DNA from: Loktanella sp. Alg231-35
GTDB lineage: Bacteria > Pseudomonadota > Alphaproteobacteria > Rhodobacterales > Rhodobacteraceae
Reading direction: 5' to 3'
NCBI RefSeq assembly: GCF_900143545.1
Contig: NZ_FREV01000007.1
Span: 1-64,000 of the forward strand
DNA length: 64,000 nt
Of the stretch, positions 4,502-26,783 are shown piece after piece (positions within the stretch are counted from its first letter, which is position 1; each line of letters starts with the position of its first letter). The notes below the pieces were generated by a model. The model was not told the origin of the DNA and did no database searches. It worked only from the letters and a program-made list of their open reading frames with translations. A program made the position numbers and the translations under genes.

Positions 4502-5233
4502 TCACTTCAGCGCGCGCGCCAGAAAGGCCCGCGTCGCTTCTTGCTGTGGTGCGTCGAACAACCGCTCCGGCGGGCCCTCTTCCACGATGCGTCCATCCGC
4601 CAAAAAACAAACTTTGTCGGCGGCTTCTCGTGCGAACCCCATTTCATGGGTCGCAAGTACCATGGTCATACCCTGGTTCTTCAGCATCAGCAGAACGTCC
4701 AGCACTTCGCCCACCAATTGCGGATCAAGCGCCGACGTAATCTCATCAAACAGCATCACCTCGGGGCGCATGGCCAAGGCGCGCACGATGGCCACGCGTT
4801 GTTGTTGACCGCCTGACAGTTGATCGGGGTAGTTGTGCATCCGGTCCGCCAGACCAAACCGCGCAAATAGCGCCTCAACTTCGGGCTGCACCTCGGCCCG
4901 CGACAGACCGCGCACCCGCCGGGGGGCCAGCATGGCGTTTTCCAATGCGGTCATATGCGGAAACAGGTTGAAACTTTGAAACACCATGCCGATCCGAGAA
5001 CGCACGCCTTGCGGGTTCAAGCCCGGTTCGGCGATATCTTCGCCATCCAACAGGATTTCCCCGTCCTCGACCGGTTCCAGCAGGTTGATGCACCGCAGCA
5101 GCGTGGATTTTCCCGCGCCCGACGCCCCGATCAAACAGACCATCTGGCCTTCTGTCACGTCCAAATTGATCCCGTCGCAAACCGTTGTGTCGCCGAACCG
5201 TTTGACGACACCGCGCAATTCTAGCTTGGCCAT
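4502..5233 (-). CDS. Polar amino-acid ABC transporter, ATP-binding protein
   Basis: The 243-residue protein has Walker A GASGAGKST, the signature LSGGQQQRV, Walker B VMLFDEITSALD and the H-loop ATHEMGF. It is of the GlnQ/HisP type, which powers import of polar amino acids or related amines. Its start codon overlaps the stop of the permease gene by one base (TGATG), so the two are translationally coupled. It is the last gene of the eight-gene minus-strand operon that begins with the GntR regulator at 12925. The substrate is not known. The catabolic genes upstream suggest a methylated amine or amino-acid derivative. Confidence 0.9.
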   Translation of the reverse strand: MAKLELRGVVKRFGDTTVCDGINLDVTEGQMVCLIGASGAGKSTLLRCINLLEPVEDGEILLDGEDIAEPGLNPQGVRSRIGMVFQSFNLFPHMTALENAMLAPRRVRGLSRAEVQPEVEALFARFGLADRMHNYPDQLSGGQQQRVAIVRALAMRPEVMLFDEITSALDPQLVGEVLDVLLMLKNQGMTMVLATHEMGFAREAADKVCFLADGRIVEEGPPERLFDAPQQEATRAFLARALK

Positions 5234-6066
5234 CAGCTGCGATCCCGCATTTGCCGTGCCATCAGATAGTCGGCATAGCGCGTGGCTGGGATGGTCACGA
5301 TCAGAAAAATGATCGCAGCCCCGACATAGGGTGTAAAATTCGCCAACAGCGATTTGAACACGCCCGCCTGCCGAAAAATCTCGACCGGGCCGATGAAGCT
5401 GAGCAATGAGACATCCTTTTGCAATGCGATCAGCATGTTCATCTGCGATGGGACAACGTTGCGGATGGCCTGCGGCAGGACAACGTCTCGCATCACCTGC
5501 CGATCTGCCAGTCCCAGCGATGAGGCCGCAGCACGTTGGCTTTGGTGGACACTATCGATGCCCGACCGGAAAATTTCGGCGACATAGGCCGAATAGGTCA
5601 GGATCAGCGCGAGCGAACCCCAAATATAGGGCGAATTCCAAGGCCGCGGCAGACCCAGCCCCGGAATGCCAAAACCGATCAGATAGACGGTGAGAATGAC
5701 CGGCACCCCGCGAAATACGTCTGTAAACGCAGCCCCAAAGATACGCAGCGGGAACAAAGCCGGTGATTTAGCGTCTCGCGCTAATGCTATCAGCAGCCCC
5801 AGCACGGCAATGGCAGGTGCGGACCAAGCGAAGATCATCACATTGACGGTGAAGGCTTCCAGCAGTTTGGGAAAGGACTTGGCCAACACCTCGCCGTTGA
5901 AGAAGCTCTTTTGCACCTTCTCCCAACCGGGAGCCATGGGCACAAAGATCACGATAGCTGCAACCACGATCACCGTACTTGTTGCCGCGATGATCAGTGA
6001 CCGCCTGCGCTGCTGCGCCTCATAGCGTTCGCGGCGGGTCATCCCCGCCGCCTGTTTCAGCGCCAT
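5233..6066 (-). CDS. Polar amino-acid ABC transporter, permease
   Basis: The 277-residue inner-membrane protein has a cytoplasmic basic N-terminus (TRRERYEAQQRRR), a first hydrophobic segment at about residues 24-44, and then the HisMQ-type permease core. The EAA loop reads AAASSLGLADRQVMRDVVLPQAIRNVVPS. It probably forms a homodimer, since only one permease gene is present. It lies one base after the binding-protein gene and overlaps the ATPase gene by one base. Confidence 0.88.
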   Translation of the reverse strand: MALKQAAGMTRRERYEAQQRRRSLIIAATSTVIVVAAIVIFVPMAPGWEKVQKSFFNGEVLAKSFPKLLEAFTVNVMIFAWSAPAIAVLGLLIALARDAKSPALFPLRIFGAAFTDVFRGVPVILTVYLIGFGIPGLGLPRPWNSPYIWGSLALILTYSAYVAEIFRSGIDSVHQSQRAAASSLGLADRQVMRDVVLPQAIRNVVPSQMNMLIALQKDVSLLSFIGPVEIFRQAGVFKSLLANFTPYVGAAIIFLIVTIPATRYADYLMARQMRDRS

Positions 6067-6067
6067 A

Positions 6068-6883
6068 TTACTTGATCAGCGGAACACCGGTGGTGTCCTG
6101 AAGCCATTCCGCCTCAATCGCGGCCAGATCGCCGCTTTCGGTCAAGGCTGCAAGCGCTTCATCCACGCAGGTCTTCAGCGGATTGCCGTCTTCCAACAGC
6201 ATGCCAAACTGATCAGGGTTGTCGCTGGCATCCGGTGCGAACTGCCCGATCACCTTTGATCCTTCGATCATCACAGCGCTCAGAAAAAGCGCCGTGGGCA
6301 GATCAAACAAAGCCGCATCAATCTGGTTGGCAGACATCGCTGCGTTCACATCAGCATTGTCGCCATAAAGCAGCGGGTCGTTGCTGGGTTGAATGACGCT
6401 GGCCAATTTAGGCACAGCCGTCGTTGATCCGACTGCCCCCCATTGCAATTCGCGCAGCGCATCAAGCGTTGCTTCGGTGTCGATCGCGCCTGGGCTGACC
6501 AGAACGGCCATGGGGGCGGTGTAATAAGGTGCCGAGAAATCTACGATTTCATCGCGCTCTGGCGTGATCGAGTACTGCTGCATGTTGACGTCAAAGTTCT
6601 TTGCCCCCGGCTGGATCGCCTCATCAAAGGATGATCTGACCCAAACCACATCTTCAGCCGCAAACCCCATTTCCGCGGCAACCGCATAAGCAACAGCGGC
6701 TTCAAACCCCTGCCCGCTTTCAGGCGCGTCATCCATGACCCAAGGGTAGTAGGCAGGATTGCCCGTCGCGATTGTGAATTTGCCGTCGGTGAGCGTCTTT
6801 CCAGCCGCACAATGACCACCGGCAAAAGCGGCGGTCGACATCAGCGCAAGGGCGACAGCGCTGGCAGAGAGCATCTTGGACAT
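6068..6883 (-). CDS. Amino-acid ABC transporter, periplasmic substrate-binding protein
   Basis: The protein has 271 residues with a cleavable signal peptide (hydrophobic core LSASAVALALMSTAAFAGG, cleavage near residue 21). This is followed by a family-3 solute-binding fold: FTIATGNPAYYPWVM at the N-terminal lobe and PERDEIVDFSAPYY at the hinge. It captures the substrate in the periplasm for the two ABC subunits encoded directly downstream. It is separated by 90 bases from the FAD oxidoreductase gene, the only sizeable gap in the operon. That gap could hold an internal promoter or a small coding frame. Confidence 0.88.
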   Translation of the reverse strand: MSKMLSASAVALALMSTAAFAGGHCAAGKTLTDGKFTIATGNPAYYPWVMDDAPESGQGFEAAVAYAVAAEMGFAAEDVVWVRSSFDEAIQPGAKNFDVNMQQYSITPERDEIVDFSAPYYTAPMAVLVSPGAIDTEATLDALRELQWGAVGSTTAVPKLASVIQPSNDPLLYGDNADVNAAMSANQIDAALFDLPTALFLSAVMIEGSKVIGQFAPDASDNPDQFGMLLEDGNPLKTCVDEALAALTESGDLAAIEAEWLQDTTGVPLIK

Positions 6884-7002
6884 ATCATCAAACCTTCTGT
6901 TGGATACACTTTTGCCAAAGCGTAGTAGCGCATGCCAAAGGTGTCCAGCGTGATGCCGCCCTGCCCGATGCGGTCAAAGCTCGCCTCCGGCGCGGCGTTC
7001 AT
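6841..7002 (-). CDS. Candidate small ORF (53 aa) bridging the gap between two operon genes
   Basis: A frame starting with ATG at 7002 overlaps the 3' end of the FAD oxidoreductase gene by 29 bases, crosses the 90-base gap and ends inside the binding-protein gene. Its middle part (GGITLDTFGMRYYALAK) has codon use like the neighbouring genes. No family is recognised. It could be a real small peptide, a remnant of a deleted gene, or chance. The overlap on both sides argues for caution. Confidence 0.2.
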   Translation of the reverse strand: MNAAPEASFDRIGQGGITLDTFGMRYYALAKVYPTEGLMICPRCSLPALSPLR

Positions 7003-8305
7003 GCAGCATGATATGCAGGTTCGCGCCTATGGTGGAAATCGGACGTGGTGGCAGGCGGCTTGGCGGATCGGCATTCAGCGCACGACTGAGCCCCGGTGAG
7101 GTCACTCCCATCGCCAGCTCCGCCGCTGTCACCCCGGCAAAGGTGCCTTTGGCAGTGCCAAGCCCATTTTGGCAGCAGGCAGCGTAAAGCCCTGGTTCCA
7201 ACTCCTGAATGACCTGCACGTTGTTGCGACTCAGGCAAAGACGCCCGCCCCAGCGGTACTCCATCTTGACCCCGGACAGCATCGGAAAACGCGCGGCGAA
7301 TGCGGCGTCATGGTCCTGCCCAATGCGCGCGATGCGTTTGTCGGACACCTCCATTGACGGGTCAAAGGTAAAGCGATTGCGGATCACGATCCTGTCGCCA
7401 CCGGTCCCGCTGATGCGCCGGACGGTGGTGCCAAGCGGATCGGCAGGCGTGATCCCCCAGATCGGATCACCGCCAAGACGCGCGACCGCATCATCCGTCA
7501 ATGCGTATGTCATCGAGGCGTAAGTGAAGACGTTCATTAGCCGGCGGGCCAGATATCCAAAGCTGGCCAGATGCCCGTTCACCGCCATGATAACTTTGGG
7601 GGCAGTCACTTTGCCCTTGGGCGTGGTGGCCACCCAGTTGCCATCGCGCTTCAGCTCAATGACGGGGCTGTTTTCATACAAAGAGATCCGGTTTGAGCGC
7701 AGACCCACTGCCACGCCGCGCACAAAGCGTGCCGGTTGGATGACAGCTGTTCCTGGGGTAAAAAGACCGCCCCGGTAATAATCTGTGCCCGTAATCCGCT
7801 GCATCTGTTGTTCGCTCAGCAGATTATGCGCTTCACCCATGGCCGAAAGGTGCTTGGCATAGTTTTCGTTGTGCGAAAGCCCCTTTTGAGTAGCTGCCCC
7901 ATTGATTTTACCCGATTGCACAAAGGCTTCGGCATCCAGCCCGTATTCTTCGGCCATTTCGCTGGCGTAAGAGATACCGCGCCGGTTATCTTCGGTCTGC
8001 GCCCGGTCATGCGCCAACTGCCCGCCATAATCAGCACTGGCCAGATCATGTGGCAAATCAATCATAAAGCCCGAATTGCGCCCCGCTGGCCCCTCGCCCA
8101 CACGCACGGCATCCAGCACGACGATCCGATCATCTGGCGCAAGTTTCGACAGACGGTGGGCGGCAGCAAGCCCCGCAAATCCCGCACCAATGACAAGCCA
8201 ATCTGCCGTGACTGTGTCTTCCAACGGCGTGGCCGGTGCGGCGGGTGGTAATAGGCTGTTCCAACCGGCAGGACCGGGGTCTTTGGGTAGACGCTTGGCC
8301 TTCAT
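6974..8305 (-). CDS. FAD-dependent amine/amino-acid oxidase (DAO family)
   Basis: The 443-residue protein has a Rossmann FAD-binding motif VIGAGFAGLAAAHRL near residue 37, the PuuB/OrdL-type motif EGPAGRNSGFMIDLPHD, and a C-terminal DAO-family block CQNGLGTAKGTFAG. DAO-family enzymes oxidise C-N bonds of secondary or tertiary amines to imines, releasing ammonia, an amine or formaldehyde. The gene lies one base after the MttB-family gene. In this operon it could oxidise an N-methylated intermediate, as sarcosine oxidase does, or a cyclic amino acid. The substrate is inferred only from context. Confidence 0.85.
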   Translation of the reverse strand: MKAKRLPKDPGPAGWNSLLPPAAPATPLEDTVTADWLVIGAGFAGLAAAHRLSKLAPDDRIVVLDAVRVGEGPAGRNSGFMIDLPHDLASADYGGQLAHDRAQTEDNRRGISYASEMAEEYGLDAEAFVQSGKINGAATQKGLSHNENYAKHLSAMGEAHNLLSEQQMQRITGTDYYRGGLFTPGTAVIQPARFVRGVAVGLRSNRISLYENSPVIELKRDGNWVATTPKGKVTAPKVIMAVNGHLASFGYLARRLMNVFTYASMTYALTDDAVARLGGDPIWGITPADPLGTTVRRISGTGGDRIVIRNRFTFDPSMEVSDKRIARIGQDHDAAFAARFPMLSGVKMEYRWGGRLCLSRNNVQVIQELEPGLYAACCQNGLGTAKGTFAGVTAAELAMGVTSPGLSRALNADPPSRLPPRPISTIGANLHIMLHERRAGGEL

Positions 8306-8306
8306 C

Positions 8307-9857
8307 CTAATGGTCCTGGTTCAATGCATCAGCGGCAGGAATTTCAGTCTCGCGGCGTCTGATATAGTCCAGCAGCGCCTCGTTGACGCCCTCGTCCAGC
8401 ATGGGTTCTTCATATTCATTTAGCATGGCCTTGGCGCGGATCAGTGCGCGCTCGGTGATCTCGATGCCGCCTTCGGCCTGCCATTGCTCGATCGAGTTGT
8501 TGTCAAACATCTCGGGCATGAAAAATGCCTTCTGAAAATGCTCCAGCGTGTGAGCGTGCCCCAGATAATGCCCACCTGGGCCGATATCGGGCACGGCGGC
8601 GATTGCTTCGTCAAAGTCGTCCCAGTTGATCCCTTCGGCCATCCGGTAGCCCATCGCGCACATTTCAGCATCGACAATGAATTTGGCGGTTGAACAGTGC
8701 ATCCCCGCCTCGTTCCAGCCGGCACTGTGCCAGATGTAGTTGGCACCCGCCATGAGCACCGCGTTCAGCGTCATGGCGGATTCGTAGCCGGCCTGCGCGT
8801 CAAAGGTCTTGGCCCCGCCAAGCGTATTGGAGGTTCGCCATGGCACACCATAAAACCGCGCCATCTGACCAATCATAAAGTTCATCAGGCTAATCTCTGG
8901 CGTGCCCGCCATGGGCGCACCAGATTTCATCGACACAGTGCTGAGGTAGTGACCATAGATGGCCGGGCACCCTTTCTTGATGACTTGGGTATAGGCCAAA
9001 GCGCTAAGCGCTTCGGCATTCAGCTGCGCCACAGTGGCCGCTGTTGAAGCAGGGGTATTCGCTCCACCCAAGACGAAAGGCGAACATAAGACCGGCTGGT
9101 TGCGGCGGCAAAAAGCACGCATCGCCCCCAGCATCGTTTCATCCCAAACAAGCGGTGAGTTCCCGTTGCAGTTCCCGGTGACTACGGGATGGGTATCAAT
9201 AAAGTCGTCACCAAAGAGGATCGCGCACATCTCGATCACATCTTCAGCGTTTTTGGGGCTGGTCGTCATGCCCATGAAGGTCTTGTCGGAATGCTTCATC
9301 GACGAATAGGTGATCCGCAGATGCCTTTGGCTGATCGGATGATCATAAGGTTCCACGATATGATGCGCGGACGAATGGATCGCGGGCAACATGTGGCTCA
9401 GCTTGTGAAAATTCGCCAAATCATCAAGCGTCGGATTGCGCCGCTGATCTTCTAGGTCGCGCAGGAATGGGGCGCCCGTCATAGGCACAAAGATGCAGTG
9501 ATCCTTGCCAAAGGGCAGGTTATTGGCGGGGTTACGTGCATGATAGGTGAATGTTTCGGGAATGGTTGCGATGAGCTCGCGCACCAGTGCGCGGTCCAGA
9601 AAAACCAGCTCGCCTACAACCTTGGCCCCTGCCCGCTTCCAATCGGCCAAGGCAATCGGGTCACGGAACTGAACGCCGACGTTTTCCAGAATATCCATCG
9701 AGGCGGCATCGATCTTTTCGACCTGCTCTGGCGTCATGGGTTCCGTCAGTGGCAAGCGCCTTTTCAATGCAGGCAACATCGCCACATCGCGGGTCTGGCG
9801 GATCGCCTTGCGCGCACCGCGTCCGCGACGAACCGTGCCAACCGCATCAACGCTCAT
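8307..9857 (-). CDS. MttB-family (trimethylamine methyltransferase-like) protein, non-pyrrolysine
   Basis: The 516-residue protein belongs to the MttB superfamily (COG5598). Family-like blocks are EKIDAASMDILENVGVQF near the N-terminus, VTGNCNGNSPLVWDE in the middle, and GGAKTFDAQAGYES and GGHYLGHAHTLEHF towards the C-terminus. It reads through without an in-frame TAG, so it is of the non-pyrrolysine type. Characterised non-Pyl members transfer a methyl group from glycine betaine, proline betaine or carnitine to a corrinoid protein. No corrinoid protein or corrinoid:THF methyltransferase gene is in the window. It overlaps the aldehyde dehydrogenase gene by four bases (ATGA). Confidence 0.85.
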   Translation of the reverse strand: MSVDAVGTVRRGRGARKAIRQTRDVAMLPALKRRLPLTEPMTPEQVEKIDAASMDILENVGVQFRDPIALADWKRAGAKVVGELVFLDRALVRELIATIPETFTYHARNPANNLPFGKDHCIFVPMTGAPFLRDLEDQRRNPTLDDLANFHKLSHMLPAIHSSAHHIVEPYDHPISQRHLRITYSSMKHSDKTFMGMTTSPKNAEDVIEMCAILFGDDFIDTHPVVTGNCNGNSPLVWDETMLGAMRAFCRRNQPVLCSPFVLGGANTPASTAATVAQLNAEALSALAYTQVIKKGCPAIYGHYLSTVSMKSGAPMAGTPEISLMNFMIGQMARFYGVPWRTSNTLGGAKTFDAQAGYESAMTLNAVLMAGANYIWHSAGWNEAGMHCSTAKFIVDAEMCAMGYRMAEGINWDDFDEAIAAVPDIGPGGHYLGHAHTLEHFQKAFFMPEMFDNNSIEQWQAEGGIEITERALIRAKAMLNEYEEPMLDEGVNEALLDYIRRRETEIPAADALNQDH

Positions 9858-11326
9858 GATACATTGTCCCCATCGGCGGGATCAGTCAGGTCGATCCAGA
9901 TGGTTTTGAGCTCGGTATACTGGTCGTGGGCATGCAACCCGTTGTCGCGCCCGCCAAAGCCAGACTGCTTGTAGCCGCCAAAGGGCGTGGCCATATTGCC
10001 TTCGCCATAACAATTGATCGTGACCGTACCTGCCCGGATGTCGCGCGCGGCGCGCATGGCATCGCGGCCACCTGCGGAAAAGATTGACGCGGCAAGCCCA
10101 TAGTCGGTGTCATTGGCGACCTGCACGGCCTCATCATTGCTGGCCACTTCGATTACGCCCAGAACAGGGCCGAAAATCTCTTCGCGGGCGCGCACGTCAT
10201 CTGCTGACATCTCGATCACGACGGGGGCAACGAAGGGGCTGTCTTCGCTGCTATCGAGATAGCTGCGCACCTTGGCGCAATGCCCTTGATCAATCAGCGC
10301 ACCAATGTGATTTGCCGGGTCCAGCGGATCGCCGGTTTTCCAATTGCGCAAATGCGCCTCGATCTTTTCCATCAACGCCGCTTTGACAGCCTTATGCACG
10401 ATCAGCCGCGAAGTGGCAGAGCAGTTTTGCCCGGCATTCCAGAACGCCGCATTCACAACATGGCCTGCCACGTGGTCGAGGTTCTCTGCATCGTCAAAGA
10501 CAACCGCCGGGTTCTTGCCGCCACACTCCAGCACGATCTTCTTGAGGTTGCTATCGGCCGCATAGCGCAGGAAATGGCGACCGGTTTCGGTTGAGCCGGT
10601 AAAGCTGACCATATCAACGTCCATGTGACGGCCCAAAGGCTCACCCACAGATGGACCATCGCCCGGCAAGACCTGCAAGACACCGCGCGGAATGCCCGCT
10701 TCAGCGGCAAGCTCGGCCACGCGCAGTGCGGTCAGGCTGGTCTGCTCTGCCGGTTTCACGATCACCGAACAGCCTGCGGCAAGGGCCGGGCCGATTTTCC
10801 AGGCCAGCATCATCAACGGGAAATTCCATGGCAGGACGGCAGCAACAACACCAATGGGTTCGCGCACGATCATGGCCATGGCACTGTCGCCTGTGGGAGC
10901 AGTCTGATCATAGATCTTATCGGCAGCTTCGGCATGCCATTTGATACAATGAATGGTCTCGGGCAGATCAATCTGCTCACAATCGGCAATCGGCTTACCG
11001 CTCTCGATACTTTCCATGACCGCCAGTTCGCGCCTGTTCCGGGTGATCAGCTTGCACAGGCGGATCAGCACATCCTTGCGCGCGTCGGGGTCCATCTTTG
11101 ACCAATGCCCCTGATCAAAGGCCTCGCGGCCCTTGGCAACGGCCAAATCAACATCAACGGCATCAGCACAAGAGATTTGCGCAATCTCCGCACCTGTTGC
11201 CGGGTTCGTTGTCGCCATCATCGGGCCATTCCCAGCGCGGTATTTGCCGTCGATAAACGGGCTGCGCGGCAGGTCGAGCGTTGCTGCGATTGCCTGATAC
11301 TCGGCATGTGTCAGAAGGTCAGTCAT
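9854..11326 (-). CDS. NAD(P)-dependent aldehyde dehydrogenase
   Basis: The 490-residue protein has the full ALDH fold: the nucleotide-binding stretch VLPWNFPLMMLAWKIGPALAAG, FTGSTETG, the general-base Glu in LECGGKNP and the catalytic Cys in NAGQNCSATSR. It resembles PuuC/betaine-aldehyde-type enzymes. It would oxidise an aldehyde released by the FAD oxidase or by the lyase to the carboxylic acid. ATGA overlaps at both ends tie it to the DapA-like and MttB-like genes. Confidence 0.9.
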   Translation of the reverse strand: MTDLLTHAEYQAIAATLDLPRSPFIDGKYRAGNGPMMATTNPATGAEIAQISCADAVDVDLAVAKGREAFDQGHWSKMDPDARKDVLIRLCKLITRNRRELAVMESIESGKPIADCEQIDLPETIHCIKWHAEAADKIYDQTAPTGDSAMAMIVREPIGVVAAVLPWNFPLMMLAWKIGPALAAGCSVIVKPAEQTSLTALRVAELAAEAGIPRGVLQVLPGDGPSVGEPLGRHMDVDMVSFTGSTETGRHFLRYAADSNLKKIVLECGGKNPAVVFDDAENLDHVAGHVVNAAFWNAGQNCSATSRLIVHKAVKAALMEKIEAHLRNWKTGDPLDPANHIGALIDQGHCAKVRSYLDSSEDSPFVAPVVIEMSADDVRAREEIFGPVLGVIEVASNDEAVQVANDTDYGLAASIFSAGGRDAMRAARDIRAGTVTINCYGEGNMATPFGGYKQSGFGGRDNGLHAHDQYTELKTIWIDLTDPADGDNVS

Positions 11327-12231
11327 ATCTTTTGCCCCGTAATGTTAGTGATTGCCGTGTTCATGGTGCGGATCACATCGGCCAAGGCGCGTTTGTCGTC
11401 CTTGTTGAGCGGTTGCAGCGGCTTGCGTGGTGGTCCGGCATCAATCCCGCGCAGGGTCAGCCCGTATTTGATGCATTGCACAAATTTACCGCCCTGTTCG
11501 AGCACACGCATCAGCGGCAACATCGCTGACATGATCGCACGGCCTTTGGTGAAATCCCCTTCAACCGCGCAGGCCTGATAAAGTGCGATATGCGCCTCTG
11601 GTGCGAAATTGGACCCGGCACAGACCCAAGACCGCGCACCCCATGCAAAGAACTCCAGTGCCTGATCGTCCATACCGCAGGACAGCGCGATATGCGGATA
11701 ATCGCGGGCCAGCATATGCAGACGGTTGACGTCACCAGAGCTTTCCTTGATGGCGCAGAAATTCGGGCTGCGACCCAGACGGTCAAGGCATTCTTCATCC
11801 ATATTCACGGACATCCGACCGGGATAATTGTAAAGCATCACGGGAAGGTTGGCCGCGCGGTCCACTGCGAGGGCATGCAAGGCAATCTCGCGACCTGTTG
11901 GGTAGGCATAAGGCGGTGTTGCCACCAATAGCGCATCTGCGCCGGCATCTTTGGCCGCTTTGGCAAACATCACACTGTCTTCGGTGCGGATAGCGCCGGT
12001 GCCAACAATCATCGGAACGCGCCCACCGATCAAGGCCTTGGCGGTGGTCATCATCTCAATCCGCTCATCAGCGGTCTGCGCGTAGTATTCGCCGGTTGAC
12101 CCTGCCACTATGATCCCGTGCACACCTGATGCAATCAGGTGGTCAACAGTCTGTGCGAAGGCAGTCTCATTCAAAGAAAAGTCATCATGATAAGGCGTGA
12201 CAATGGGGGTATAGATGCCTTCAAACTGCAT
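11323..12231 (-). CDS. Dihydrodipicolinate synthase/N-acetylneuraminate lyase family protein
   Basis: The 302-residue class-I aldolase-type TIM barrel has the N-terminal block GIYTPIVTPY, the GSTGEYY substrate motif, the tyrosine in LYNYPGRM and the Schiff-base lysine in CAIKESSGD. Members of this superfamily act as aldolases, dehydratases or deaminases; an example is 1-pyrroline-4-hydroxy-2-carboxylate deaminase in hydroxyproline breakdown. A true DapA for lysine synthesis would not normally sit in a catabolic operon, so a catabolic lyase is inferred. The gene overlaps the GntR gene by 11 bases. Confidence 0.85.
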   Translation of the reverse strand: MQFEGIYTPIVTPYHDDFSLNETAFAQTVDHLIASGVHGIIVAGSTGEYYAQTADERIEMMTTAKALIGGRVPMIVGTGAIRTEDSVMFAKAAKDAGADALLVATPPYAYPTGREIALHALAVDRAANLPVMLYNYPGRMSVNMDEECLDRLGRSPNFCAIKESSGDVNRLHMLARDYPHIALSCGMDDQALEFFAWGARSWVCAGSNFAPEAHIALYQACAVEGDFTKGRAIMSAMLPLMRVLEQGGKFVQCIKYGLTLRGIDAGPPRKPLQPLNKDDKRALADVIRTMNTAITNITGQKI

Positions 12232-12925
12232 GGCTGTTGTCCTTCAGAGAGATCACATTGACCGGGAGCGGATCAGGACGCACGAAACGCTCCATCTGAT
12301 CGCGGCTGAGGTCCCAGTGCTGGATGGTCAGATCGATGGCCAAAGCGCCTTCGCGCGCTTCAATCGCAGTGATCAAGGCCTCGTGCTGCTCAATCGCCTT
12401 ACGCACCAGATTGCTTTCGGCAGGTGACGACGGGTTGTAAAATGTCTGGCTAAGGCGCGTGTGGTCAATCAGCAAGCGCGACAGCGCGGCCTCAAGATAG
12501 GCGTTCTGGGCCATGTCGCCGATGATGGCATGAAAGCGGTGATTGGCGAGGGCGGCTTCTTCGCTTTGGTTCGCTTTGGCCGCCTTGGCAAATTTCAGTT
12601 GTGCCGTTTTGAGGTCGTCAATCTGGCCACCTGTCCAGGTTTCCGCCGCCAGTCGCGAAATGTTGGCGTAGATCATCGGCGCAGTCTGAAAGAAGGTCCG
12701 CATCACCGCGATATCCATCGACGCCACCTTCGCCCCGCGATTGGGCGTCCGCGCGGCATAGCCTTCGCCCATCAGGCGCTGCAGCACTTCGCGCATGGGG
12801 GTACGGGACATACCATAAAGCGCGGTCAGGCTGATCTCATCCAAGTCAGAACCCGGCACCAACTCGGTCGAGAGGATGCGGCGTTTGAGGTCTTCAAGAC
12901 ATGCGTCTTTTGAGAATCGGGTCAT
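12221..12925 (-). CDS. GntR-family transcriptional regulator (FadR/FCD subfamily)
   Basis: The protein has an N-terminal winged helix (LKRRILSTELVPGSDLDEISL, then GMSRTPMREVLQRLMGEG) and a C-terminal all-helical FCD ligand-binding domain (residues about 85-220). The ATG at 12925 is chosen over a GTG at 12949: it gives the usual FCD length and leaves the dyad operator at 12941-12959 outside the coding region. It is the first gene of the catabolic operon and probably regulates its own transcription in response to the substrate or an intermediate. Confidence 0.85.
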   Translation of the reverse strand: MTRFSKDACLEDLKRRILSTELVPGSDLDEISLTALYGMSRTPMREVLQRLMGEGYAARTPNRGAKVASMDIAVMRTFFQTAPMIYANISRLAAETWTGGQIDDLKTAQLKFAKAAKANQSEEAALANHRFHAIIGDMAQNAYLEAALSRLLIDHTRLSQTFYNPSSPAESNLVRKAIEQHEALITAIEAREGALAIDLTIQHWDLSRDQMERFVRPDPLPVNVISLKDNSHAV

Positions 12926-12940
12926 GTGTGTTATCCAATC

Positions 12941-12959
12941 TGTATACACAATGTATACA
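12941..12959 (-). promoter_or_regulatory. Probable operator of the GntR-regulated operon
   Basis: Two perfect copies of the self-palindromic octamer TGTATACA are separated by CAA, giving 11-bp centre-to-centre spacing. They lie 16-34 bases upstream of the GntR start codon. TGTATACA-type palindromes are typical binding sites for FCD-type GntR regulators. The position just before the first gene of the operon fits autoregulation. No other copy was noticed at the other genes of the operon. Confidence 0.7.
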
Positions 12960-22878: not shown

Positions 22879-25165
22879 TGTTTTCCTTCGCCTCTTGAAT
22901 TTTCTGCCAGACACGGTGCGGGGTGTAGGGCATTTGCACGTCGCGCACACCAACATCCCACAAAGCGTCGACGACGGCATTCGCCATCGCCGCCAGCGCA
23001 CCAACGGTGCCCGCCTCACCGCAACCTTTCATCCCCATGGGATTATATAGCGACGGCGTGCATTCTGTTGAAAAACTGATCATGGGAACATCATCGGCAC
23101 GTGGCATGCCGTAGTCCATAAAACTCGCCGTGAGCAGTTGACCGTCTTCATCAAACACAACCCTTTCTGTCAGGGCCTGCCCGATGCCTTGCGCGACACC
23201 GCCGTGCACCTGCCCTGCAACCAGCATTGGGTTAATAAGGTTACCAAAATCATCTACGACCGTATAGCGGTCCACCGTGACAACGCCCGTCTCAGCGTCC
23301 ACCTCAACTTCGGCCACATGCCCGCCATTGGGGAAACTGCGGTTTTCCAAAGTGATCCGGGCACTGTGATGCAGCAGGTCATCGCGGCCCGCGTCGCGCG
23401 CCATATCAGCGACTTCAAGCATCGTTGGCGTCAGGTTGGACCCTGCAATGCGGAACCTTTCATCATCAAAGCTGATCTCTTTGGCATCGACGCCCTCGGT
23501 TTCGGCCAGAAAGGCCGTGAAGGTCTCTAGCATAACGTCAATCGTTGCCAGCGTCGCGGTGTTCTGCACAGTGACAGAGCGTGACCCGCCTGTACCGCCG
23601 CCGACCGCGATCCGGTCGCTATCGCCCTGCACAACCGTGACCCGATCCGCCGGAATGCCCGTCTGATCCGCCAGAAACTGCGCATAGACCGTTTCATGCC
23701 CCTGCCCGTTCGATTGAGTACCGACATAGATCGTCGCCCCGGCTTGGGTGAACTCCACAGCAGTGGTCTCGGATGGATGCCCCAGAATGCTCTCGATGTA
23801 ATAGCATAGCCCCTGCCCGCGCAGTTTGCCCTGTGCCGCTGACGCCGCCTTGCGCGCGGCGAACCCATCCTTGTCAGCGGCTTCGGCCACGCTGGACAAT
23901 ACCATCCCGAAATCGCCCACGTCATAGGTCACCCCCGTGACGGAGGTGTAAGGAAAGTTGCCGGGCGCGATAAAGTTTTTGCGCCGCAGGTCCCACGGAC
24001 TGATGCCAAGCTGGCGCGCAGCCTCATCCATAGTGCGTTCCAGAACAAACATGGCCTCAGGGCGGCCAGCGCCGCGGTAGGCATCGACCGGGGTCGTGTT
24101 GGTGTAGACGCCGCGCGTGCGCATATAGGCGGTCTGAACGTCATAGGTGCCCATCAGTACCTTTGAGAAAAGGTCGGTTTGGATGGCTTGTGCAAACTGT
24201 GAATTATACGCCCCCATGTTGGCCACGGTATCAAGCTGATAGGCGGTGATCCGATAATCCGCATCAAAGGCCAGTGTCGCGGTTGTCGTCAGGTCGCGAC
24301 CTGCGTTGTCGGTCAGCATGGCCTCTGTGCGTTCGGACATCCAGCGGACAGGACGGCCCAAGACACGGGCAGCGTGGGCCGCACAAACGGGTTCGGGATA
24401 GCGCATAGCCTTCATCCCGAACCCGCCACCCACATCGGGGTTGGTCACACGGATATCATCAGGATCAAGGTTGAAATGGTGCGCCAGATCACCCTTGGGC
24501 ACCCAGACGCCCTGCCCATTGACGGCCACATGCAAGCGGCCATCGACGACCTCGGCATAACAGCCACGCGGCTCCATCGCGTTGCAGATGATCCGGTTGT
24601 CATCCACATCCACCGTCACAACATGGGCGGCGTTGTCGATTTCAGCATTCGTTGCCACCTCGTCGCCCATGCCCCAATCGAATGCGAGGTTCTGTGGGGC
24701 CTCAGCGTGGATTGCATCGCCACCAATGGCCAGTTCGACATGCACAGGCAGGTCATCGACATCGAGGACGATCATCTCTGCTGCATCCTTAGCGATCAGC
24801 GCCGTGTCCGCGACGATCATCGCGACGGCTTCACCCACGTGACGCACCCGACCTTGCGCCAGAAGCGGACGCAAGGGTGACGCCCCCTTGCTGCCATCGC
24901 GGTTCTTGACGGTCGAACCTGCCAGCCCAAGCTGCACGCCTGCCGCAACCAGATCATCCGCCGTTACAATCAGATGCACCCCCGGCATGTCGCGGGCGTC
25001 TGCCAGATCAAGTTCGGCAATCTCGCCATGGGCCACCGTCGCCCGCAGGAAATAGGCATAAAGTGCGCCATCAGGCGCAATATCATCCACATAGCGCCCG
25101 TGCCCGGTGAGAAAGCGCACATCTTCAAAGCGTTTCACCGCCTGGCTTTTGCCAAATTTTTCCAT
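22865..25165 (-). CDS. Xanthine dehydrogenase/CO dehydrogenase-family molybdopterin-binding large subunit
   Basis: The 766-residue protein has the full large-subunit architecture: an N-terminal domain (KSQAVKRFEDVRFLTGHGRYVDDI), a first molybdopterin-binding part (NPDVGGGFGMKAMRYPEP) and the catalytic Glu in KGCGEAGTVGA near the C-terminus. The active-site loop is AYRGAGRPEA (from residue 362), not the AYRCSFR loop of true form I CO dehydrogenase. It is probably an aldehyde or N-heterocycle hydroxylase, or a form-II-like enzyme. The FAD and 2Fe-2S subunits that normally flank it are missing from the window. Confidence 0.88.
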   Translation of the reverse strand: MEKFGKSQAVKRFEDVRFLTGHGRYVDDIAPDGALYAYFLRATVAHGEIAELDLADARDMPGVHLIVTADDLVAAGVQLGLAGSTVKNRDGSKGASPLRPLLAQGRVRHVGEAVAMIVADTALIAKDAAEMIVLDVDDLPVHVELAIGGDAIHAEAPQNLAFDWGMGDEVATNAEIDNAAHVVTVDVDDNRIICNAMEPRGCYAEVVDGRLHVAVNGQGVWVPKGDLAHHFNLDPDDIRVTNPDVGGGFGMKAMRYPEPVCAAHAARVLGRPVRWMSERTEAMLTDNAGRDLTTTATLAFDADYRITAYQLDTVANMGAYNSQFAQAIQTDLFSKVLMGTYDVQTAYMRTRGVYTNTTPVDAYRGAGRPEAMFVLERTMDEAARQLGISPWDLRRKNFIAPGNFPYTSVTGVTYDVGDFGMVLSSVAEAADKDGFAARKAASAAQGKLRGQGLCYYIESILGHPSETTAVEFTQAGATIYVGTQSNGQGHETVYAQFLADQTGIPADRVTVVQGDSDRIAVGGGTGGSRSVTVQNTATLATIDVMLETFTAFLAETEGVDAKEISFDDERFRIAGSNLTPTMLEVADMARDAGRDDLLHHSARITLENRSFPNGGHVAEVEVDAETGVVTVDRYTVVDDFGNLINPMLVAGQVHGGVAQGIGQALTERVVFDEDGQLLTASFMDYGMPRADDVPMISFSTECTPSLYNPMGMKGCGEAGTVGALAAMANAVVDALWDVGVRDVQMPYTPHRVWQKIQEAKENSAAA

Positions 25166-25302: not shown

Positions 25303-26181
25303 ATGCAAACATCCCTTAAGCTAACAGACCATAAATTGCCCCAAGCTCTGACGCAGCAATACTGGGACGATGGGTATCTTTTTCCGTTACCATCGTTGCC
25401 TGCACGCGACGCTTTGGCCTATCGGGCAGAGATCGAAACGATCGAGCGCGACTGGCTGGACAACGGCCTGCCACTCCCCCTGAACACCTACAAACGGATC
25501 AACGCGCATGTGGTCATGCCGATGGTCGCCACGATCGCCACGCACCCCGGGGTGCTGGACGTGATTGAGGGCATTCTCGGGCCTGATATTATGGTTTTCT
25601 CAGGCGAGTTCTTTATCAAAGAGCCGCAGACCGACCACATCGTTTCGATGCATCAGGACCTGACGTATTGGGGCTTGGGTGCGATTGACGGGCTGGTGAC
25701 GGCGTGGATTCCACTTTCGCCAGCAACGCCAGCCTCTGGTTGTATGGATTTTGTCCGGGGCAGCCACAAGAATGCGATCTTGCCACATGAGGATACGTTT
25801 GGTGAAAACAACCTGCTTAGCCGGGGCCAAGAAGTGAAGGTTGATGTGACCGACGATCAGAAAACAGCCATCGAAATTCACCCCGGCCAGATGAGCCTAC
25901 ATCACGGGCTAACCATTCATGGATCGGGCCCCAACACCAGCAACGACCGACGGATTGCTTGCGTGATCCGCTACATACGCCCGGATATGCAGCAACAGGT
26001 CGGGGAAAAGGACTATGCCATGCTGGCCCGCGGAGAAGACCGTCATGGCAACTTCATCCATGTCCCTGCGCCGATCGAAAACTTCTCTCCCGCCGCATTG
26101 GCGCTTTACGATGAGATGCGCGAGGCGCAGTCTAAGGTGATGATGAAAGGCGCTGGCGCCAAGACGGAGATGTATGTGTGA
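25303..26181 (+). CDS. Phytanoyl-CoA dioxygenase (PhyH)-family Fe(II)/2-oxoglutarate dioxygenase, PhnY/TmpA-like by context
   Basis: The 292-residue protein has the iron-binding facial triad H117-x-D119 in SMHQDLTYWG and H206 in IHGSGPN. It also has the family's SPATPASGCMDFVRGSHK strand, and an Arg of the type that binds 2-oxoglutarate follows. GGAGG lies about 6 bases before the ATG at 25303, and the longer upstream reading is not conserved in character. Its stop overlaps the next gene's ATG by one base (TGATG). PhyH enzymes paired with an HD oxygenase are known as PhnY/PhnZ and TmpA/TmpB, where the dioxygenase hydroxylates the carbon next to phosphorus. The substrate here is unproven. Confidence 0.82.
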   Translation: MQTSLKLTDHKLPQALTQQYWDDGYLFPLPSLPARDALAYRAEIETIERDWLDNGLPLPLNTYKRINAHVVMPMVATIATHPGVLDVIEGILGPDIMVFSGEFFIKEPQTDHIVSMHQDLTYWGLGAIDGLVTAWIPLSPATPASGCMDFVRGSHKNAILPHEDTFGENNLLSRGQEVKVDVTDDQKTAIEIHPGQMSLHHGLTIHGSGPNTSNDRRIACVIRYIRPDMQQQVGEKDYAMLARGEDRHGNFIHVPAPIENFSPAALALYDEMREAQSKVMMKGAGAKTEMYV

Positions 26182-26783
26182 TGGAACGTGTCAAATTCAC
26201 CGCAATGAAAGATGGCGACAAGGAAGACTACGACTTCCTGACCGAACATGAGGTGGAATACACCAAAGGCACCGCTGCACGTCTGTTGGACGCAATGGTC
26301 AGCCTTGATGAAGGGTTGTCTGGCTATCAGATCACCCGCCTAGGTCATTCCCTACAATCCGCCACACGGGCAGAGCGCGATGGGGCGGACACCGATTGGG
26401 TCGTTGCAGCGCTGCTGCACGATATCGGGGATATCTATGCGCCTTACAATCACGATGAATATGCGGCGACCATCCTGCGCCCCTTTGTGCGTGAACAGGT
26501 GACATGGGTTGTCGAAAAGCACGGTGACTTCCAACTGGTCTATTATGGCGCACATGTGGGTGCTGACCCCGACAAGCGCGACGCCTACAAAGGGCACCCC
26601 TATTTCGACGATTGCGCGACCTTCTGCGAACGCTGGGATCAAAGCTCTTTTGACCCTGACTATGACACGCTTGCACTGTCGCATTTTGCCGGGCGCGTGG
26701 AAGAGGTTTTTGCCCGCGCACCTTACGATCCAGATGTAATCCGGGCTGGAGAGCGCGTTGCGTTACACAGAGTGGATAAATAA
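26181..26783 (+). CDS. HD-domain oxygenase-like protein (PhnZ/TmpB-type)
   Basis: The 200-residue protein has an HD domain whose ligands can be placed against PhnZ: H56 in LGHSLQSA, H80-D81 in ALLHDIGD, H91, H114 and D153 in RWDQ. The spacings of 24 (H56-H80) and 23 (H91-H114) are close to those I recall for the mixed-valent diiron oxygenase PhnZ. Such enzymes cleave the C-P bond of alpha-hydroxyphosphonates, or C-C bonds in the related MIOX. The PhnZ lid residues Tyr24 and Glu27 would align with L46 and Y49, so substrate recognition probably differs. A hydrolase role cannot be excluded. It is translationally coupled to the PhyH gene. Confidence 0.75.
   Translation: MERVKFTAMKDGDKEDYDFLTEHEVEYTKGTAARLLDAMVSLDEGLSGYQITRLGHSLQSATRAERDGADTDWVVAALLHDIGDIYAPYNHDEYAATILRPFVREQVTWVVEKHGDFQLVYYGAHVGADPDKRDAYKGHPYFDDCATFCERWDQSSFDPDYDTLALSHFAGRVEEVFARAPYDPDVIRAGERVALHRVDK

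Follow-up and report, generated by a model that had tools for sequence, protein, structure and literature searches.

The 64,000-nt stretch of Loktanella sp. Alg231-35 DNA analyzed here (the window) contains a PhyH-family hydroxylase gene that overlaps a gene for an HD-domain protein, and the question is which compound such a pair of enzymes may convert. A preliminary description of this DNA had suggested a possible new pathway of the PhnY/PhnZ type. We compared both proteins with curated families and with their relatives in other genomes, and the HD protein also with solved structures, and examined the genes around those relatives.

The features of the pair are collected in Table 1. The one-base overlap reported previously was confirmed, and the HD gene is probably translationally coupled to the PhyH gene, for which an in-frame TTG at 25165 is an alternative start. 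The same spacing (-1) was observed in 13 of 20 PhyH-HD pairs; the spacing of TauD-HD pairs ranges from a 4-base overlap to a 94-base gap. The pair is flanked by genes for a molybdenum-hydroxylase subunit and a secreted-repeat (Lipoprotein_15) protein, followed by a valS-like gene (by sequence reading, which here and below means that a neighbor was named from its sequence without a search). As had been described, no phosphonate transporter or regulator is found among these neighbors. About 12-21 kb from the pair, the minus strand (window 4502-12949) encodes an ABC amino-acid-type transporter, an FAD oxidoreductase, an MttB-superfamily methyltransferase (TIGR02369, 293 bits, below the cut-off of 525), an aldehyde dehydrogenase, a DHDPS-family protein, and a regulator (GntR-like by reading), which looks like another quaternary-amine catabolic cluster.

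Table 1. Coordinates of the PhyH/HD gene pair and of selected codons in the window
Feature	Coordinates	Strand	Basis or remark
PhyH-family Fe(II)/2-oxoglutarate hydroxylase gene	25303..26181	+	292 aa; ATG 25303, stop TGA 26179-26181
H117-Q-D119 codons, iron-binding facial triad of PhyH	25651..25659	+	alignment of 27 rows
H206 codon, distal iron ligand of PhyH	25918..25920	+	alignment of 27 rows
TGATG, one-base PhyH/HD overlap (shared base is its A)	26179..26183	+	sequence; likely translational coupling
HD-domain protein gene, predicted diiron oxygenase	26181..26783	+	200 aa; ATG 26181
H56 codon, first HD ligand	26346..26348	+	113-row alignment
H80-D81 codons, HD pair	26418..26423	+	113-row alignment
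D84 codon	26430..26432	+	Asp 113/113; PhnZ/TmpB-type rows His 22/24
H91 codon, ligand	26451..26453	+	113-row alignment
H114 (ligand) to Q118 codons	26520..26534	+	Q118 113/113; PhnZ/TmpB-type rows Lys 24/24
D153 codon, last ligand	26637..26639	+	113-row alignment

The first protein belongs to the PhyH family (Pfam PF05721, E-value 3.8e-24, 86.6 bits, cut-off 22), and its AlphaFold2 model has a pLDDT of 89. The Fe/2OG triad H117-x-D119/H206 had been assigned to exactly the right residues, and these, together with Arg217, are invariant across 27 aligned PhyH rows. From its place, Arg217 would bind 2OG; the HxD...H triad, the suitably placed arginine, and the Pfam score all agree with the family. 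In the PhyH tree, the window protein falls in an HD-linked group of 20 rows (SH-aLRT 95), 18 of which are HD-paired; the other two represent one gene seen twice in a genome with an unlinked HD gene (G109). Another 26 PhyH rows, mostly the best match per genome rather than all matches, lie outside this group.

For the second protein, the only model over its cut-off in Pfam and NCBIfam is the general HD family (PF01966, E-value 6.1e-7). The MIOX family (PF05153) was not assigned, its score of 24.0 bits being just below the cut-off of 25. Scores against the curated NCBIfam models were 43.8 of 214.6 bits for TIGR03276 (Phn-HD), 32.7 of 300 for TmpB, and 28.6 of 300 for PhnZ1, cut-offs that are strict and are also missed, mostly by far less, by the TmpB-type gene of locus L112 and most other PhnZ/TmpB-type matches. 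PhnZ was matched in the PDB with an E-value of 3.7e-7. The predicted fold is nearest to PhnZ and TmpB, hydrolases following at a clear distance, and MIOX is reached with a Foldseek E-value of only 0.25. These three proteins are the HD-domain oxygenases named in the accessible part of PMC8177086, where they share a mixed-valent diiron mechanism with O2. A grouping with nucleotide phosphohydrolases, which the preliminary description had held against its own reading, was not found by sequence and fold, and assignment as such a phosphohydrolase is disfavored by the fold ranking.

We then aligned 113 HD rows (relatives and the window protein) with 24 PhnZ/TmpB-type proteins from 23 loci and L112; residue counts among the HD rows are not independent events, because they include near-copies (L010 and L087 are identical). 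The six-ligand motif H...HD...H...H...D is present in 113/113 and 24/24 rows, respectively, and Gln59 is the same in all 137 proteins. The ligands H56, H80-D81, H91, H114, and D153 had been located exactly, and a failure of the diiron ligands to be conserved, which had also been named as a contrary result, was not observed. The lid differs. Its Tyr occurs in 24/24 PhnZ/TmpB-type rows versus 1/113 HD rows (L028), with Leu in 89/113, and its Glu in 17/24 versus 0/113, with Tyr or Phe in 112/113. The YxxE lid of PhnZ consists of Tyr24 and Glu27 according to the available text of PMC8177086, and the alignment places L46 and Y49 of the window protein opposite these residues, as proposed before, so that the YxxE motif is absent.

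The substrate side of the pocket is also changed. The window protein has D84, Q118, and E150 at the positions of PhnZ His62, Lys108, and Arg158, the basic residues that presumably hold the phosphonate. An Arg found in 24/24 PhnZ/TmpB-type rows is replaced by Glu150 in 103/113 HD rows and retained in none, a Lys (24/24) is replaced by Phe157 in 113/113, and a stretch of about 19 residues with serines and GG in PhnZ/TmpB is absent from the HD family. The family has its own invariant residues, namely Arg53, Asn90, Trp109, Phe117, Phe148, and Cys149, and Tyr121 and Tyr161 are each present in 112/113 rows. Because the lid is changed relative to PhnZ and TmpB, the substrate is probably different; replacement of the PhnZ/TmpB pocket positions tested therefore strengthens what the preliminary description had deduced from the lid. 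Membership in PhnZ or TmpB was rejected on both the curated cut-offs and the pocket residues. Together, these comparisons support an oxygenase-type HD protein related to PhnZ/TmpB, and at the sequence level the family is an HD-oxygenase-type family distinct from the curated models, none of which was found to cover it.

Of 289 genomes sampled from the window's class (Alphaproteobacteria), 82 have a relative of the HD protein (E-value 1e-10 or better), and a profile search (E-value 1e-15) detected relatives in 40 of 299 genomes of a phylum sample. From 117 loci, 112 and the window entered a quick tree, in which 48 of 110 inner branches are open; the window's own copy, two genes with in-frame stops, and two poor matches were left out. 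Neighboring genes were predicted by a codon-based caller that is unreliable in high-GC stretches, and L226, L229, and L230 were not used. Counting hydroxylases within 400 bases on the same strand, 20 of the 113 rows adjoin a PhyH gene, 14 a TauD/BBOX-type gene, and one TmpA, while 17 lie within 4 kb of both a carnitine dehydrogenase and a BKACE-type gene. All 17 belong to a 51-row clade (SH-aLRT 99) that includes the window protein; they comprise 12 Mesorhizobium, one Hoeflea, and four Tabrizicola-type rows and are not independent.

As an example of these operons, the gene order in L061 is BKACE-type enzyme, HD, carnitine dehydrogenase (742.6 bits, over the curated cut-off of 592), acyl-CoA dehydrogenase, acyl-CoA synthetase, and a hydratase that most resembles crotonobetainyl-CoA hydratase (308 of 500 bits). 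The BKACE-type genes tested are below every curated cut-off (232 of 382 bits in L061) and are named by family only. The Mesorhizobium-type operons have the HD gene without an adjacent Fe/2OG match. In a distant lineage (L134), HD, a betainyl-CoA-thioesterase-type domain (on the other strand and like the end of a fused dehydrogenase), BKACE-type, and dehydrogenase genes lie side by side. In L106 (Pelagibacteraceae), roughly 4 kb separate a TauD-HD pair from BKACE-type and dehydrogenase genes, the latter next to a gene that is more BBOX-like and lies on the other strand. Linkage to carnitine/betaine catabolism is hence seen in 17/113 relatives, L134, and L106, and is absent at the window locus itself. 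The TauD-HD pair of L109 has as neighbors an MttB-type methyltransferase gene and, by sequence reading, a BCCT-type transporter gene. Among 25 more distant loci, three (L137, L140, and L148) have GlxA-type, MttB-type, or sarcosine-oxidase genes nearby, of which soxB of L148 scores over and the MttB-type gene of L140 under its cut-off; no quaternary-amine neighbors were recognized at the other 22. Judged by these neighborhoods, some members of the HD family are linked to quaternary-amine catabolism.

Several other arrangements were observed. A LysR-type regulator gene (by annotation or sequence reading) is divergent beside the hydroxylase-HD pair at 11 loci (L008, L011/L125, L014, L015/L127, L017/L129, L035 with HD alone, L053, L055, L060, L086, and L108); the window has none there. 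In the compact genomes of Pelagibacteraceae (L103, L104, L113, L114, and L118), HD lies between a purF-type gene and glutathione-synthesis-like genes (by reading). Ureohydrolase (agmatinase/arginase-type) genes close to HD in L090-L093 and L107, and agmatine-deiminase-type genes near it in L134 (both by sequence reading), could be a second link to amine catabolism. A sterol-desaturase-type protein is encoded after HD in L035 (a Phaeobacter plasmid, annotated) and one gene from it in L116 (by reading). In some roseobacters (L045, L057, L064, and L067), HD is upstream of valS with no PhyH match; PhyH is not an obligatory partner of HD. In a genome of the window's genus (G252; one gene, seen as L006/L246), HD has an in-frame TAA and its flank no PhyH match, and the pair may be decaying there.

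Neither a hydroxylase partner nor a carnitine operon was found within the tested distances for 61 of the 113 HD rows. Such solitary genes, along with the mostly hydrolytic character of the HD superfamily (in the part of PMC8177086 available), would suit a hydrolase or metabolite-repair enzyme that merely adjoins oxygenases; we consider this improbable, as it has against it both the fold comparison and the repeated pairing with two unrelated Fe/2OG families.

The carnitine link was also examined across genomes by counting carnitine dehydrogenase (E-value 1e-60) in the same 289 genomes: HD is present in 82, the dehydrogenase in 46, and both in 33. The dehydrogenase thus occurs in 33/82 genomes with HD versus 13/207 without it (odds ratio 10, one-sided Fisher p 2e-11, ignoring phylogeny and genome size), and the odds ratio is 8.8 without the window's own family. 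The control gene xylA is enriched too, with an odds ratio of 3.1, or 1.8 without the window's family. Among 30 families with the dehydrogenase, 20 have at least one sampled dehydrogenase genome with HD and 10 have none. Contig 12 of the window's genome carries a carnitine dehydrogenase gene (73 per cent identical to that of L061) and, close to it, a BKACE-type gene; a search for a broken HD/PhyH copy between the two gave no match at an E-value of 1e-3. Unlike in the Mesorhizobium, Hoeflea, and Tabrizicola-type genomes and, separately, L134, where the carnitine operon (carnitine 3-dehydrogenase, BKACE-type enzyme, betainyl-CoA thioesterase domain) houses the HD relative, here HD stands outside it with PhyH on another contig (C11, C12). 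The same holds for G107, whose carnitine operon has the same genes without HD. In G022, a partial second carnitine dehydrogenase N-terminus (L225:10517-10873) is found between the dehydrogenase and the BKACE-type gene.

The hydroxylases that accompany HD were compared next. TauD partners of three loci scored 340-348 bits against TmpA (cut-off 400), 234-293 against BBOX, and 159-184 against trimethyllysine dioxygenase. The stretch HTDNPYR of five TmpA rows is common to 13 of 14 TauD partners (the remaining one has HADNPYR) and is lacking in two BBOX rows. On the HD tree, at least four swaps between PhyH and TauD partners are required, which suggests that the hydroxylation step is conserved rather than a given hydroxylase. 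The TauD scores bear on the proposal that the substrate of HD is 3-hydroxy-trimethyllysine, split into glyoxylate and a gamma-butyrobetaine that supplies carnitine catabolism, with the Fe/2OG partner as trimethyllysine hydroxylase. A vicinal amino alcohol suits HD-oxygenase chemistry, and the L061 operon, with its crotonobetainyl-CoA-hydratase-like gene and carnitine dehydrogenase, would agree with such a route, but the scores in the three loci disfavor the partner as a trimethyllysine hydroxylase, and we regard the proposal as quite unlikely.

Phosphonates remain to be weighed. If the pair formed a phosphonate pathway, PhyH would hydroxylate a phosphonate and HD would cleave its C-P bond with a rebuilt pocket, perhaps on a trimethylammonium phosphonate. 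The closest solved relatives of HD, PhnZ and TmpB, are consistent with this. In addition, a genuine TmpA gene (580 bits, cut-off 400) comes directly after HD in L116, whose short contig has no TmpB match; this adjacency is the best single argument for a phosphonate substrate. At L112, the neighbors of a TauD-HD pair are TmpA (565 bits) and a TmpB-type gene (263.5 of 300 bits), so both systems coexist in that locus. Such coexistence also counts against this pathway. The window's genome likewise carries a separate locus, with TmpA (573 bits) and a TmpB-type gene (202 of 214.6 bits) side by side on contig 14; for this reason, the PhyH/HD pair is probably not the TMAEP system of the organism. Moreover, HD has other residues at the lid and pocket positions tested (at three of them in 113/113 rows), relatives are linked to carnitine, and the only phosphonate genes recognized in the neighborhoods read, by unsystematic reading, were of the TmpA/TmpB type. 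A phosphonate substrate is therefore unlikely in our view. What stands of the preliminary description is a Fe/2OG hydroxylase with a related HD oxygenase-type protein; its phosphonate pathway is not supported, given the replaced pocket, the carnitine/betaine context of relatives, and the organism's separate TmpA/TmpB-type locus, and a phosphonate title for the pair is doubtful.

Our main reading, to which we assign a probability of roughly 45%, is that the two proteins are successive oxygenases acting on a betaine-type compound, with HD cleaving a C-C bond and glycine betaine as the product. PhyH would use Fe(II) and 2-oxoglutarate to hydroxylate a short trimethylammonium (betaine-type) compound. 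HD, as a mixed-valent diiron oxygenase, would then cleave with O2 the bond that joins the hydroxylated carbon to its neighbor, the former ending as a carboxylate: Me3N+-CH2-CH(OH)-R + O2 -> glycine betaine + oxidised R, in which a carboxylate or carboxymethyl group would take the place of the phosphonate of TmpB as R. Glycine betaine, the likeliest product, would enter the carnitine/glycine-betaine route. A hydroxylated trimethylammonium carboxylate is the best guess, given where the relatives lie in their genomes and that the phosphonate pocket has been lost. 2-Hydroxy acids, such as that from beta-alanine betaine, fit HD-oxygenase chemistry best. Among the candidates, carnitine fits the operon best, and hydroxytrimethyllysine partly fits both the chemistry and the operon but not the TauD scores. 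Several points count against the betaine reading. Within the tested distances, 61 of the 113 HD rows have no partner and no carnitine operon, and 22 of the 25 more distant loci have no recognized quaternary-amine neighbor. The TmpA beside HD in L116 suits a phosphonate, HD and the carnitine genes are on separate contigs in the window's genome, the xylA control is enriched as well, and 10 of the 30 dehydrogenase families have no sampled dehydrogenase genome with HD. The BKACE-type genes tested fall below the curated cut-offs, and 12 of the 17 carnitine-operon rows are from one genus, Mesorhizobium, whose operons have no Fe/2OG match adjacent to HD. Finally, carnitine, as a 3-hydroxy acid, lacks to our knowledge the neighboring oxygen of known HD-oxygenase substrates.

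In a further variant, carnitine itself is the substrate: HD would offer another way to cleave L- or D-carnitine (carnitine + O2 -> glycine betaine + glycolate), and the TauD partner would be a gamma-butyrobetaine hydroxylase. The mass balance, the 17 loci with HD close to BKACE-type and carnitine dehydrogenase genes, and the position of TauD partners within the BBOX/TmpA superfamily agree with this. However, the enzyme would duplicate the dehydrogenase/BKACE route with which it co-occurs, L106 already has its more BBOX-like gene next to the dehydrogenase, and we know of no HD oxygenase with a 3-hydroxy acid as substrate. We give this variant little credence.

The pair can also be set beside known systems: TmpA/TmpB of the 2-(trimethylammonio)ethylphosphonate pathway (6npa and 6npb), PhnY*/PhnZ of the 2-aminoethylphosphonate pathway (4mlm, 4mln, 4n6w, and 4n71), and MIOX (2huo). 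TmpA is a TauD-type hydroxylase, whereas that of the window is PhyH; relative to TmpB, the lid, His, Lys, Arg, and Lys positions and the serine stretch are replaced. From PhnY*/PhnZ the pair differs in its pocket positions and in having no phosphonate genes seen beside it. MIOX, whose Pfam cut-off the window protein just misses, does not act in tandem with a hydroxylase according to the available text of PMC8177086, whereas the window HD is paired with PhyH.

In the literature, GmPhnY/PhnZ and the fused PhoF are further versions of the phosphonate pathway (PMC10574752, accessible part), and a SAR11 island contains carnitine dehydrogenase, BKACE, and two BBOX genes (PMC12421898, accessible part); the term 'HD domain' is absent from the main text of the latter. 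Among the literature matches listed (titles, abstract starts, and passages), including PMC8177086, PMC10574752, PMC12478193, and PMC12421898, no description of an HD family in carnitine/betaine metabolism was present. In plasmid-record annotations, family members are called phosphohydrolase, HD domain-containing, or inositol oxygenase family protein.

Since the phosphonate pocket is lost and some close relatives lie in carnitine breakdown operons, the bond that HD cleaves may be one in a betaine-like compound rather than in a phosphonate. A broader idea, doubtful at present, is that the HD family comprises widespread C-C-cleaving oxygenases for hydroxylated betaines with interchangeable PhyH/TmpA-like hydroxylases, a counterpart of TmpA/TmpB for carboxylates; beta-alanine betaine, for example, would be converted to its 2-hydroxy acid and then to glycine betaine and bicarbonate. 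If true, roseobacters, rhizobia, SAR11, and Halomonas would have a route into glycine betaine that depends on O2. A distinct HD family, marked by a residue signature of its own and paired with either of two kinds of hydroxylase, would extend the chemistry from phosphonates and inositol to quaternary amines and would correct the gene names now in use, and the pair gives a short list of candidate substrates.
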